In this document: one piece after another, positions 25,308 through 28,299 of the stretch | Position numbering within the stretch: position 1 is the first letter of the stretch | Layout: each line of letters starts with the position of its first letter | Origin: Verrucomicrobiales bacterium | GTDB lineage: Bacteria; Verrucomicrobiota; Verrucomicrobiia; Verrucomicrobiales; DEV007 | Length of the DNA stretch: 64,000 nt | NCBI GenBank assembly: GCA_002698785.1 | Contig: PAAG01000059.1 | Coordinates: 310,001 to 374,000, forward strand | Direction of reading: 5' to 3' | Translations under genes and position numbers: made by a program | Notes under the pieces: model-generated | Told to the model about the DNA's origin: nothing | Databases searched by the model: none | The model's input: only the letters and a program-made list of their open reading frames with translations

Positions 25308-26804
25308 TCAATGCGAAAAATCCCCAGCGAGACGCAACTCGTCTACAAACCTTCTCATCTCAGCTTCTTTTTCTTTCCGGTCACGAACTCGCAACAAATA
25401 CGAAGGATGGACTGTCGCAATGATCTTCCCGCCGAAACCAACGTCATTCGGTCCCTTCACGACTCCGCGCTCTGACGGGATTCTAAAATCCTGACGAATC
25501 ACTGATTGGGCCGCCGTGTTACCCAAAGTGATGATGGTCGATGGCTGGATTTTTGCGATCTCTCCGAGGAGCCACGGACGACAGGCCTTCATCTCATTTC
25601 GATTTGCCTTATCGTGAAGCCTCTTTGGTCCTCTTCCTGACACGCTTCCTTTGGACGGCTTCCATTTGAAATGCTTCACCGCATTTGTGATATACAATTC
25701 CCCCCGACCAATCTCAGCCGCTGAAAGTGCATCATTCAACAGCTTTCCCGCTGGCCCGACGAATGGACGACCCGCAAGATCTTCCTGATCGCCCGGCTGC
25801 TCTCCGATAATCATGATCTCAGCATTCGGATTCCCTTCTCCAAACACTGTCTGCGTCGCCGACTCCCATAAGGGACAGGCTCGACAGCAGGATGCCATCT
25901 CTCTCCATTCATCAAGAGTGTAGGGTGCAATCGATCCCGGAACTTGTGAGAGTGTCAGTGACTCGTTACTCTCGTGCAAACCGTCTAAGTAAGAAGACTT
26001 CGGCCGGTCCTTCGGAGTCAAAGCGGTCCTGTCGACCATTTGGTTCACTCGATACGATGCACTGTTCGTAAGCTCTCGGATTAATGGGGCTTCCGGCAGA
26101 TTCTTCCAATATTTCACCGGCATTTCGGCGCGCATCGCATTGAGTTTCAGACGAGCAGGATTGAAAATATTTCGGTAATACGTTCGCCAGAGATCTTCCA
26201 ACTCATCGTCATCCGGCGCATAACTTTTCGAAACACCTTCGGTGAAATGCAGCTCTTTTCCATCCCAGTGCACGCACTTCTCCGGTGTGAGTATCGACCA
26301 GTCCATCCCCGTAAAGCGACCGCGAAAGAAACCAGCATTTCTCTCCACAATATGATGAAACGGCTCAAACCAGGAAACAAACTGCTCACGACCAGTCGCA
26401 GATTCACCGACCTTTCTGAAGCGGACAAAAGCTCGCATCTTGTGGCAATCGCGACGCACATCCTTTGCCATGGCATGAGCCCGTCGAATCTCACGATCCG
26501 TCTCGAGAGAAAGCAGATGCCTCTCCCCTCCACGACTAATCCGCCACGCCAGTGAATAGAGCAACGCCCATCTCTCTTCCTCCCGATGGCAGGCCACTGT
26601 CTCGGCTAAATCGAAAAATGCTTTAGGGATGCGAACGTGAGACCGATCTCGTTTCTCGCTTGCCTCGCCCATGTGAAACAATTCATCCTGACATGCTTCC
26701 CGAGAGCTCCAGAGAATCTCAGAAGGGGAAATCCCTTTCTGGAGAAATTCACGCGCCCGCGAGCGCCATGAGTCAAAGCTTTGCTCAATCGCTACAGAAA
26801 TCAT
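25308..26804 (-). CDS. DUF4130-UdgX fusion: uracil-DNA glycosylase-family DNA repair protein
   Basis: 498 residues from the ATG at 26804, which lies 2 nt after the radical SAM gene's stop. The N-terminal half (to about 265) fits the DUF4130 DNA-metabolism domain that often accompanies radical SAM repair proteins (AFFDLAETVACHREEERWAL; KMRAFVRFRK; FEPFHHIVERNAGFF). The C-terminal half is a UdgX/family 4-type uracil glycosylase: CRACPLW, MIIGEQPGDQEDLAGRPFVG, YITNAVKHFK, a KRLH loop matching the KRRIH loop whose His forms a covalent link to DNA in UdgX, and TVHPSYLLR. It is expected to excise or trap uracil in DNA, under SOS control with its neighbour. Confidence 0.87.
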   Translation of the reverse strand: MISVAIEQSFDSWRSRAREFLQKGISPSEILWSSREACQDELFHMGEASEKRDRSHVRIPKAFFDLAETVACHREEERWALLYSLAWRISRGGERHLLSLETDREIRRAHAMAKDVRRDCHKMRAFVRFRKVGESATGREQFVSWFEPFHHIVERNAGFFRGRFTGMDWSILTPEKCVHWDGKELHFTEGVSKSYAPDDDELEDLWRTYYRNIFNPARLKLNAMRAEMPVKYWKNLPEAPLIRELTNSASYRVNQMVDRTALTPKDRPKSSYLDGLHESNESLTLSQVPGSIAPYTLDEWREMASCCRACPLWESATQTVFGEGNPNAEIMIIGEQPGDQEDLAGRPFVGPAGKLLNDALSAAEIGRGELYITNAVKHFKWKPSKGSVSGRGPKRLHDKANRNEMKACRPWLLGEIAKIQPSTIITLGNTAAQSVIRQDFRIPSERGVVKGPNDVGFGGKIIATVHPSYLLRVRDRKEKEAEMRRFVDELRLAGDFSH

Positions 26805-26806
26805 CT

Positions 26807-28093
26807 TCAGACCTCGCCGGTTAACGCACTCGAACGGCTCGCGGAAAAATCGAACTCCAATTGTTCTGGCTTTGGCAGGAACCGCTCCTTCAGCCGATCC
26901 CCATCGAGATTCAGTCGAACTGGATTGTGATCGATCGTTTCGATAAAAGGCAGGCACTTTCGCAAACTGATGCGAAGTCGAGTCAAATCCTCGAGCCTTA
27001 CGGCACTCCATCGCCTGACTTTTAAAATTCGATCCACACTGCGCACACCGATCCCAGGGATACGTAGCAGTTCTTCACGGCTCGCTCGATTGATGTTAAT
27101 CGGGAATTGCTCGCGATTCCGGAGAGCCCAGGACAACTTTGGATCGAGATCCAAATCCAGATTTCCTTTCAATGCCCCCTCACTCGGTGTGAGCTCTCCC
27201 ACGTTGAACCCATAAAAACGCATCAGCCAGTCTGCTTGATACAAACGGTGTTCTCGCACCAGAGGCGGAGCCTTGGCTGGAAGGACCGAAGACGAAGCCG
27301 GAATCGGGCTGAATGCCGAATAATACACACGCCGCAGTCGATACCCACGATACAAATGATCCGAGCGTTTCAAAATAGACGAATCATCCGACGCATCGGC
27401 CCCCACAATCATCTGAGTACTCTGCCCAGATGCATAAATTCTGGGAGTCGCCCGATGGTGTTTGGCGTAGTGCTTTTTCTCTTCCTTTGAACCTTCGATT
27501 CGCTGGCGAATTCCACCCATCGCCTCCTGCGTTCGACGCAGGTTTTTCTCGGGAGCAAGTTCTCGAAGCCCTTTCTCACTGGGCAGCTCGATATTGATGC
27601 TGATCCGATCCGCGTACTTTCCCGCCTCTTCGATAAGTTCTTGCGAGGCCTCGGGAATCGTCTTGAGGTGGATATATCCGCGAAAGTCGTGAGTCTCCCT
27701 CAGCTCGCGAGCGACGCGGACGACCTGCTCCATCGTAAAATCGGCATTTCTCACAATCCCACTGCTGAGAAACAACCCTTCGATGTAATTTCTCTTATAA
27801 AAATCGAGGGTCAGCCGAATGGCTTCTTCTGCGGTGAATCGAGCGCGAGCGACGTCCGACGAACGCCGGTTGATACAATACTGGCAATCGTAGATGCAGA
27901 CGTTGGTCAGCAGGATCTTCAGCAGAGAAATACAGCGACCATCCGGCGAGTAAGAGTGACAAATTCCGGCACCCCCTGCTGATCCTACCCCTTTTCCATT
28001 TGAAGAATCTCTCCGTTTCGCCCCCGAACTCGCACACGAAGCATCATATTTTGCCGCATCGGCAAGAATTTCGAGTTTTTGAGCCAAATTCAT
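26807..28093 (-). CDS. Putative DNA modification/repair radical SAM protein
   Basis: 428 residues of the TIGR03916-type family. The [4Fe-4S]/SAM site is CIYDCQYC (CxxxCxxC) at about residue 70, after ICHSYSPDGRCISLLKILLT. The C-terminus has a helix-hairpin-helix DNA-binding motif (INRASREELLRIPGIGVRSV, then DRILKVRRW). Family members occur next to UdgX/DUF4130 genes and resemble spore-photoproduct-lyase-like repair enzymes; the chemistry is not known. The ATG at 28093 lies 3 nt downstream of a palindromic LexA-type operator overlapping the promoter, so it is probably SOS-induced and possibly leaderless. Confidence 0.9.
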   Translation of the reverse strand: MNLAQKLEILADAAKYDASCASSGAKRRDSSNGKGVGSAGGAGICHSYSPDGRCISLLKILLTNVCIYDCQYCINRRSSDVARARFTAEEAIRLTLDFYKRNYIEGLFLSSGIVRNADFTMEQVVRVARELRETHDFRGYIHLKTIPEASQELIEEAGKYADRISINIELPSEKGLRELAPEKNLRRTQEAMGGIRQRIEGSKEEKKHYAKHHRATPRIYASGQSTQMIVGADASDDSSILKRSDHLYRGYRLRRVYYSAFSPIPASSSVLPAKAPPLVREHRLYQADWLMRFYGFNVGELTPSEGALKGNLDLDLDPKLSWALRNREQFPININRASREELLRIPGIGVRSVDRILKVRRWSAVRLEDLTRLRISLRKCLPFIETIDHNPVRLNLDGDRLKERFLPKPEQLEFDFSASRSSALTGEV

Positions 28094-28095
28094 AA

Positions 28096-28113
28096 ACTGT
28101 TCTAGAGAACAGT
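28096..28113 (-). promoter_or_regulatory. LexA-type SOS operator
   Basis: ACTGTTCTAGAGAACAGT: two perfect 7-bp arms around TAGA. It contains TGTTC-N4-GAACA, which I recall being reported as the Verrucomicrobia LexA motif (from memory). It sits over the predicted -10 of the radical SAM/UdgX operon, the expected place for a repressor. Confidence 0.8.
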
Positions 28114-28127
28114 AATCATCTGGACAA
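28099..28127 (-). promoter_or_regulatory. Predicted promoter of the radical SAM/UdgX operon
   Basis: On the minus strand TTGTCC (28122-28127) and TAGAAC (28099-28104) are 17 bp apart. The start of transcription would fall about 6 nt further, at or next to the ATG at 28093, so the mRNA may have almost no leader. The -10 element lies inside the palindromic operator. Confidence 0.5.
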
Positions 28128-28150
28128 AAAATTCAATCATTCAAAGAGAA

Positions 28151-28174
28151 GAAAATGGTCGGGGTGACTGGATT
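28151..28174. repeat. 24-bp direct repeat, copy 1 (partial tRNA-Pro 3' end)
   Basis: This 24-bp stretch is identical to 28276-28299. The shared part includes the last 19 bp of the tRNA-Pro gene (CCA end, acceptor strand and part of the T arm) plus 5 bp beyond the tRNA end. The pair flanks about 101 bp without a gene. A duplicated tRNA 3' end is typical of integration sites, so this may be an attachment-site scar. Confidence 0.8.
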
Positions 28175-28275: not shown

Positions 28276-28299
28276 GAAAATGGTCGGGGTGACTGGATT
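28276..28299. repeat. 24-bp direct repeat, copy 2 (at the intact tRNA-Pro)
   Basis: Second copy of the 24-bp repeat, overlapping the 3' end of the intact tRNA-Pro gene and identical to 28151-28174. Confidence 0.8.

Follow-up and report, generated by a model that had tools for sequence, protein, structure and literature searches.

When DNA is damaged, LexA is released from its operators, which is established SOS biology. In Verrucomicrobia, the LexA motif is TGTTC-N4-GAACA, as reportedly described by Erill and colleagues in 2016; its occurrence at lexA in the genome studied here was measured. UdgX of M. smegmatis is known to form a covalent bond to uracil-DNA. For the operon itself, the portions of PMC8565304 available to us state SOS control of COG1573-COG4277 in Verrucomicrobia and Alphaproteobacteria and credit Erill et al. 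2016 (PMC4951493) with the SOS-controlled putative uracil-glycosylase operon of Verrucomicrobia. The same portions place this gene pair (equated with ours through the COG names) under a local SOS motif in the UDG operon of Bacteroidetes and Alphaproteobacteria, with Bacteroidetes boxes that differ from ours (GGA-N5-TCC and CTAA-N5-TTAG), and ascribe the function of the operon to the glycosylase. LexA control, as the original prediction had it for our locus, is therefore supported but not new, as it is already in print. What is new here is that UdgX appears dispensable; neither this, nor a dnaE2-linked form, nor a palindrome in Xanthomonadaceae was met in those portions of PMC8565304. A limited literature search, which leaves room for such work in print, found no paper joining UdgX with radical SAM enzymes, with or without LexA, or on TIGR03916 or TIGR03915.

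The analyzed window is a stretch of 64,000 nucleotides from a Verrucomicrobiales bacterium (GCA_002698785.1, contig PAAG01000059.1), and the features of the operon are collected in Table 1. The near-ideal palindrome predicted ahead of the operon was borne out: the 18 bp (ACTGTTCTAGAGAACAGT) consist of two perfect 8-base arms flanking 2 bases, and a motif scan of the window placed an exact TGTTC-N4-GAACA core at 28098-28111. The radical SAM ATG (28093), a start codon backed by the conserved N terminus in relatives, is separated from the palindrome by 2 bp and from its core by 4 bp. The promoter that was said to overlap the palindrome held up in part. Two hexamers with 17-bp spacing are present, and TAGAAC falls within the palindrome, but the pair is weak, with 8 of 12 consensus bases matched (counted by eye from the sequence), and a promoter consensus scan returned no site. 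A start fixed by TAGAAC as the −10 element would coincide with the ATG, so that the mRNA would be leaderless, and we infer such a transcript for the operon. The gene names given beforehand, a TIGR03916 radical SAM protein and a DUF4130-UdgX protein, were correct, with family scores over the curated cut-offs.

Table 1. Features of the operon and its upstream region (window coordinates) and the related palindrome in Xanthomonadaceae
Feature	Position	Strand	Basis
Probable LexA box, 18-bp palindrome ACTGTTCT-AG-AGAACAGT	28096..28113	.	Identical core at lexA; kept in relatives
Weak promoter-like pair, TTGTCC (28127-28122)/17 bp/TAGAAC (28104-28099)	28099..28127	-	Sequence inspection
TIGR03916 radical SAM protein, 428 aa	26807..28093	-	566.4 bits vs cut-off 343.5
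CxxxCxxC cluster motif, C66-C70-C73	27875..27898	-	Invariant in 40/40 aligned orthologues
Further invariant cysteines C20, C45, C54	27932..28036	-	40/40 orthologues
Helix-hairpin-helix (HhH; DNA-binding) stretch, residues 331-360	27014..27103	-	PF12836 E 2e-4, PF00633 E 4e-4, each under its curated cut-off
Partner gene, DUF4130 + UdgX, 498 aa, ATG 26804	25308..26804	-	Begins 2 bp after radical SAM stop
DUF4130/TIGR03915 domain	26088..26789	-	214.1 bits vs cut-off 112.25
UdgX/TIGR03914 domain	25329..26084	-	242.1 bits vs cut-off 189.95
GEQPG motif (25805-25791) and KRLH loop (25625-25614)	Within UdgX domain	-	Alignment
GTCTCA-N5-TGAGAC before radical SAM operon	L080, L084, L088, L089, L092

We give a probability of roughly 0.9 to a model in which the palindrome, very probably a LexA box, serves as a LexA operator on the leaderless promoter of a two-gene DNA repair operon that is released by damage, with the radical SAM and DUF4130 proteins acting on a base and UdgX being optional. 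LexA would cover the promoter from its −10 side as far as the start codon and keep the operon off; upon DNA damage, RecA would trigger LexA self-cleavage, and the operon would be turned on. Two proteins would then be made: a radical SAM protein that has an HhH stretch for DNA binding and, probably, two Fe-S clusters, and a DUF4130 protein that is here fused to UdgX. Most likely, radical SAM and DUF4130 would jointly reverse or modify a damaged DNA base, and UdgX may be an optional extra, binding (and covalently trapping) uracil or an abasic site.

The six invariant cysteines of the radical SAM protein make a second Fe-S cluster likely, with C66-C70-C73 assigned to the standard cluster and C20, C45, and C54 as candidate ligands of the second. 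The structure model (pLDDT 82.7) has low confidence over the N-terminal part that carries the extra cysteines, and the argument for a second cluster therefore draws on conservation. The nearest structural matches of the model are lipoyl synthase and HydE-type enzymes, with Z scores of about 17 (LIAS 8tsk_A: Z 17.0, rmsd 3.1, 221 aligned; HydE 7o1o: Z 16.9, rmsd 2.8, 214 aligned), and extra N-terminal cysteines are common to these enzymes and the window protein. The N-terminal auxiliary-cluster motif of lipoyl synthase (LipA) is CX4CX5C, whereas the spacing here is C20-x24-C45-x8-C54; the C-terminal HhH part differs as well. Because of the x24 and x8 spacing, we do not consider the protein a lipoyl synthase; at most, it works like one. 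Spore photoproduct lyase and the PA0069 radical SAM protein likewise stand for SOS-linked radical SAM DNA repair, and the PA0069-family gene of this genome has an exact box of its own. In an NCBIfam search at an E value of ≤1e-3, the window protein matched only TIGR03916, with no match to spore photoproduct lyase TIGR04070.

In the partner protein, GEQPGD and the loop His align with those of solved UdgX structures (6iod, 6ajo, and 6ail; E 6e-56), which we take to be from M. smegmatis. The loop reads PKRLH rather than KRRIH, with the His aligned, and, unlike the solved proteins, the window UdgX is fused behind DUF4130. The DUF4130 model (pLDDT 88.3) resembles DHH/RecJ proteins weakly (best, 8a8k_B with Z 8.0, rmsd 5.1, and 178 aligned; RecJ 1ir6 with Z 7.4, rmsd 4.5, and 177 aligned), and a Foldseek search with this model gave no hit at an E value of ≤0.001. 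From the conserved cysteines, the HhH stretch, and the fold comparisons of both proteins, we propose that radical SAM and DUF4130 reverse or modify a base lesion by radical chemistry.

The published view (PMC8565304, in the portions available to us) is that of uracil clean-up: the SOS purpose of the operon would be uracil removal, with base excision by UdgX cleaning up misincorporation by the SOS error-prone polymerase. It fits the UdgX domain of the window protein, with its catalytic-type loop His, and also the frequency of UdgX downstream of the radical SAM gene. When the two domains of the window protein were searched by tblastn on 89 loci, UdgX was found in 62, and 85 had DUF4130 in the neighborhood of the radical SAM gene (two loci, L050 and L077, leave no space downstream). 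Among Verrucomicrobiota, however, 18 of the 30 loci scored have DUF4130 but not UdgX, and the box is retained at ≤1 mismatch in 9 of these 18 versus 5 of the 12 with UdgX. To look beyond the operon, UdgX was searched in 24 whole genomes, namely, 21 picked because it was missing next to the radical SAM gene, plus 3 positive controls. Only the three controls and a stand-alone copy in one genome (G059) scored over the family cut-off, and 20 of the 21 picked genomes had no such UdgX anywhere; a few of these 20 assemblies are incomplete (G055, 77%; G028 and G036, 86%). Most of the 20 encode a general uracil-glycosylase relative that scores below the cut-off, and in 9 the operon keeps a box at ≤1 mismatch. 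The absence of UdgX from genomes of which about half keep the box counts against the uracil clean-up rationale, which we consider improbable as the purpose of the operon.

The constant pair appears to be TIGR03916 and DUF4130. In ten hand-picked genomes, DUF4130 was found in all six with the radical SAM gene and in none of the four without it. These distributions suggest that UdgX is dispensable, and its absences point to radical SAM/DUF4130 chemistry. Since the box and the pairing persist while UdgX comes and goes, radical SAM chemistry on DNA together with DUF4130 should be looked for, and not uracil excision alone, which gives a direction to the question of what TIGR03916 and DUF4130 do. 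Caulobacter, used as a control genome, gave matches in all three family searches (certainly over the cut-off only in that for DUF4130) and is a candidate organism for testing the role of the radical SAM/DUF4130 core. Three genomes (L219, L221, and L222) encode DUF4130 apart from the radical SAM gene, and a scan of 260 bp at ≤2 mismatches found no box there, which counts against this reading. In these genomes, the detached gene lies downstream of a QueC-like open reading frame (ORF), its identity judged by eye.

We then asked how far the box is kept before orthologous operons. A search of 57 genomes of the order for TIGR03916 gave 23 over the cut-off, the source genome included; the other 34 (17 without a match and 17 with matches below the cut-off only) were left out of the box counts. 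Together with 10 named Verrucomicrobiota genomes, this made 33 operon upstream regions, each scanned over the 150 bp ahead of the start and the 9 bp behind it. The box was exact in 8 of the 33, present at ≤1 mismatch in 14, and present at ≤2 mismatches in 23, compared with Markov resampling means of 0.0, 0.17, and 2.5, respectively; the remaining 10 had no box even at 2 mismatches. The palindrome is thus conserved before orthologous operons, the lack of which had been named beforehand as grounds for giving up LexA control. In one genome (G039), there are only three exact sites, and two of them are at lexA and the radical SAM operon.

A comparison with lexA was possible in 31 of the 33 genomes (G077 has no lexA match, and G055 has only a weak one). 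For the named loci, 30 were picked by hand for spread among 80 matches listed from a search that confirmed at least 594 orthologous stretches. LexA-domain hits numbered more than one in several genomes (G003, five; G008, three; G017, G028, and G041, two; also G086 and others), and one hit per genome was used, the best scoring, except for G028, whose best hit sits at the end of a contig, so that the second was taken. With thresholds of ≤1 mismatch at lexA and ≤2 at the operon, 18 genomes had both boxes, 5 had the operon box only, 2 had the lexA box only, and 6 had neither (P = 0.012 by Fisher's test). With one mismatch allowed at both, the counts in the same order were 12, 2, 8, and 9 (P = 0.057; n = 31). 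Exact boxes at both sites gave 6, 2, 13, and 10 (P = 0.43; n = 31), and at this strictest setting the agreement was not significant. The agreement depends on thresholds that were tried afterwards, with relatedness not removed, and for these reasons it is support rather than proof and only suggestive. Single genomes go either way: G004 has an exact operon box and none at lexA, and G041 and G078 show the reverse.

In two genomes with no operon box within 1 mismatch (G021 and G049), the radical SAM gene lies ∼70 bp behind a dnaE2-type polymerase gene. Of the two loci concerned (L017 and L018), L018 was scanned, and its upstream ORF matched the C-terminal half of the error-prone polymerase family NF004225 with 580 bits, which is below the full-length cut-off in a locus that is cut. 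With such an ORF so close ahead, the radical SAM gene may share a transcript with an SOS mutagenesis cassette. Separately, in several genomes of one family (f3), the operon is closely preceded by the end of an ORF; at L040, where this ORF was scanned, it encodes a polyketide-cyclase-like domain.

Outside Verrucomicrobiota, the same place is occupied by other sequences. From 104 radical SAM loci, 11 without a recognizable N terminus were dropped, leaving 93, and 4 more were removed (L040, which is fragmentary; L048 and L091, where hardly any DNA precedes the gene; and L085, with no class in its title). The remaining loci were 36 from Verrucomicrobiota, 43 from Alphaproteobacteria (by record title), and 10 from Gamma- and Betaproteobacteria. 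An exact GAAC-N7-GAAC on either strand was present in 39 of the 43 alphaproteobacterial loci (resampled mean, 0.19; maximum, 2). The Verrucomicrobia box was absent at ≤1 mismatch from all 43 of them; none of the 36 Verrucomicrobiota loci had an exact alphaproteobacterial box. In 12 Alphaproteobacteria for which lexA was fetched, the exact alphaproteobacterial box was found at the operon in all 12 and at lexA in 11, with 1 mismatch in the other (G073). The Janthinobacterium operon has TACTGTATAAAAACACAGTA, an exact TACTGT-N8-ACAGTA, and that of Halomonas has the same pattern with one mismatch; we take this pattern to be the E. coli-type box. The lexA promoters of these two fit it only with 2 (Janthinobacterium) and 4 (Halomonas) mismatches. 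At 3 of the 10 gamma- and betaproteobacterial loci (Hydrocarboniphaga, Luteibacter, and Rhodanobacter), none of the tested boxes was found at the operon. The operon box mostly follows the LexA type of the lineage. Such different sequences in one position, the majority of them matching the local LexA type, form what we see as the strongest argument for SOS control.

Xanthomonadaceae depart from this pattern. All five loci have an exact GTCTCA-N5-TGAGAC beginning 39 bp ahead of the radical SAM gene. In the four genomes searched, the exact palindrome occurs once or twice per genome, and a backwards control never does. The lexA1 box is TTAG-N6-TACTA and the lexA2 box is TGTAC-N4-GTACA, each exact in 4/4 genomes. 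As the operon palindrome is unlike both, control by something other than those two boxes exists. Copies with two mismatches exceed the backwards control by a small margin to fourfold, clearly in G059, G060, and G063 and little in G057 and G058. Copies with 0 to 2 mismatches occur near mraZ at three loci, of which two were scanned, and near a DEAH-helicase gene at four loci, again with two scanned; Rhodanobacter has a one-mismatch copy 153 bp before the LexA-domain match of a second lexA-like gene. Loci with variant palindromes are L164, L165, L204 (Rhodanobacter), L206, L209, L210, and L212, and L164 also has a Fic-domain gene. Tentatively, at somewhat less than even odds, we would extend the model to an SOS-inducible machine of radical SAM and DUF4130 that performs radical-based DNA lesion repair (or base modification) with two Fe-S clusters, independently of uracil and with UdgX optional, whose control was re-wired several times and for which the Xanthomonadaceae palindrome perhaps marks a further DNA damage regulon.

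The Xanthomonadaceae case also raises the question of whether the palindrome in our window serves a dimeric repressor other than LexA, such as a DNA damage regulator of its own. For the source genome, we consider this very unlikely. At lexA, 9 bp ahead of its ATG, there is a 14-mer identical to the core in the window, and its absence from this place had been set beforehand as a refutation test. The same type of palindrome is found at ssb, and one-mismatch copies lie 13 bp ahead of dinB (start called TTG) and 13 bp ahead of an imuA-like gene. The latter matches the ImuA model with 30 bits, below the cut-off, and precedes an IMS-domain gene taken as imuB. At recA, no box was found within one mismatch. 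Of the three genes at which the motif had been sought, lexA carries it exactly and imuB has it, with one mismatch, at the imuA-like gene before it, but recA does not. With the identical 14-mer at lexA and the box kept before orthologues, SOS (LexA) control of the operon is supported, and we infer both LexA binding and induction.

The number of exact motif copies is what chance would give. In the window, TGTTC-N4-GAACA was found twice at ≤1 mismatch, against 2.16 expected. The genome (7.0 Mb in 60 contigs) has 7 exact copies, versus ∼6 expected from base composition and 2 for a backwards control pattern, and 191 copies at one mismatch versus 90 for the control; as evidence of enrichment, the exact count equals chance and was rejected. 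The position of the copies is more telling, with six of the seven lying 4 to 16 bp ahead of a gene start: the window operon (4 bp), lexA (9 bp), ssb (5 bp), a FAN1-HTH gene (16 bp), the PA0069-family radical SAM gene (5 bp), and a D12-class adenine methylase gene (13 bp). These gaps are provisional because the gene starts are our own ORF calls. The seventh copy has no nameable gene start close behind it. That the palindrome came to lie near a gene start by chance, as counts equal to expectation and to shuffles would allow, is scarcely credible with six of seven copies at gene starts and is already contradicted by the conservation in orthologues. The case for the palindrome rests on position and conservation, not on motif count.

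Some of these copies are of interest in their own right. In the ssb start region (L002, 1474-1514), the exact box is accompanied by another with one mismatch (TGCTCATGCGAACA) at a distance of 27 bp. The exact box ahead of the FAN1-HTH protein gene (L004, 1501-1514; G000:C50:180841) suggests that a FAN1-like nuclease may be SOS controlled in this genome, and the box ahead of the D12-class DNA adenine methylase gene is at L006, 1501-1514 (G000:C52:203596). As for the operon itself, TIGR03916 was over the cut-off in none of the four other genomes of the genus that were searched; the operon is patchy and perhaps mobile or often lost. Just upstream of it, the window has a perfect 24-bp direct repeat (28151-28174 and 28276-28299, 125 bp apart) that comprises the 3′ end of tRNA-Pro(cgg) and 5 downstream bases and looks like a tRNA-end duplication as left by integrating elements.
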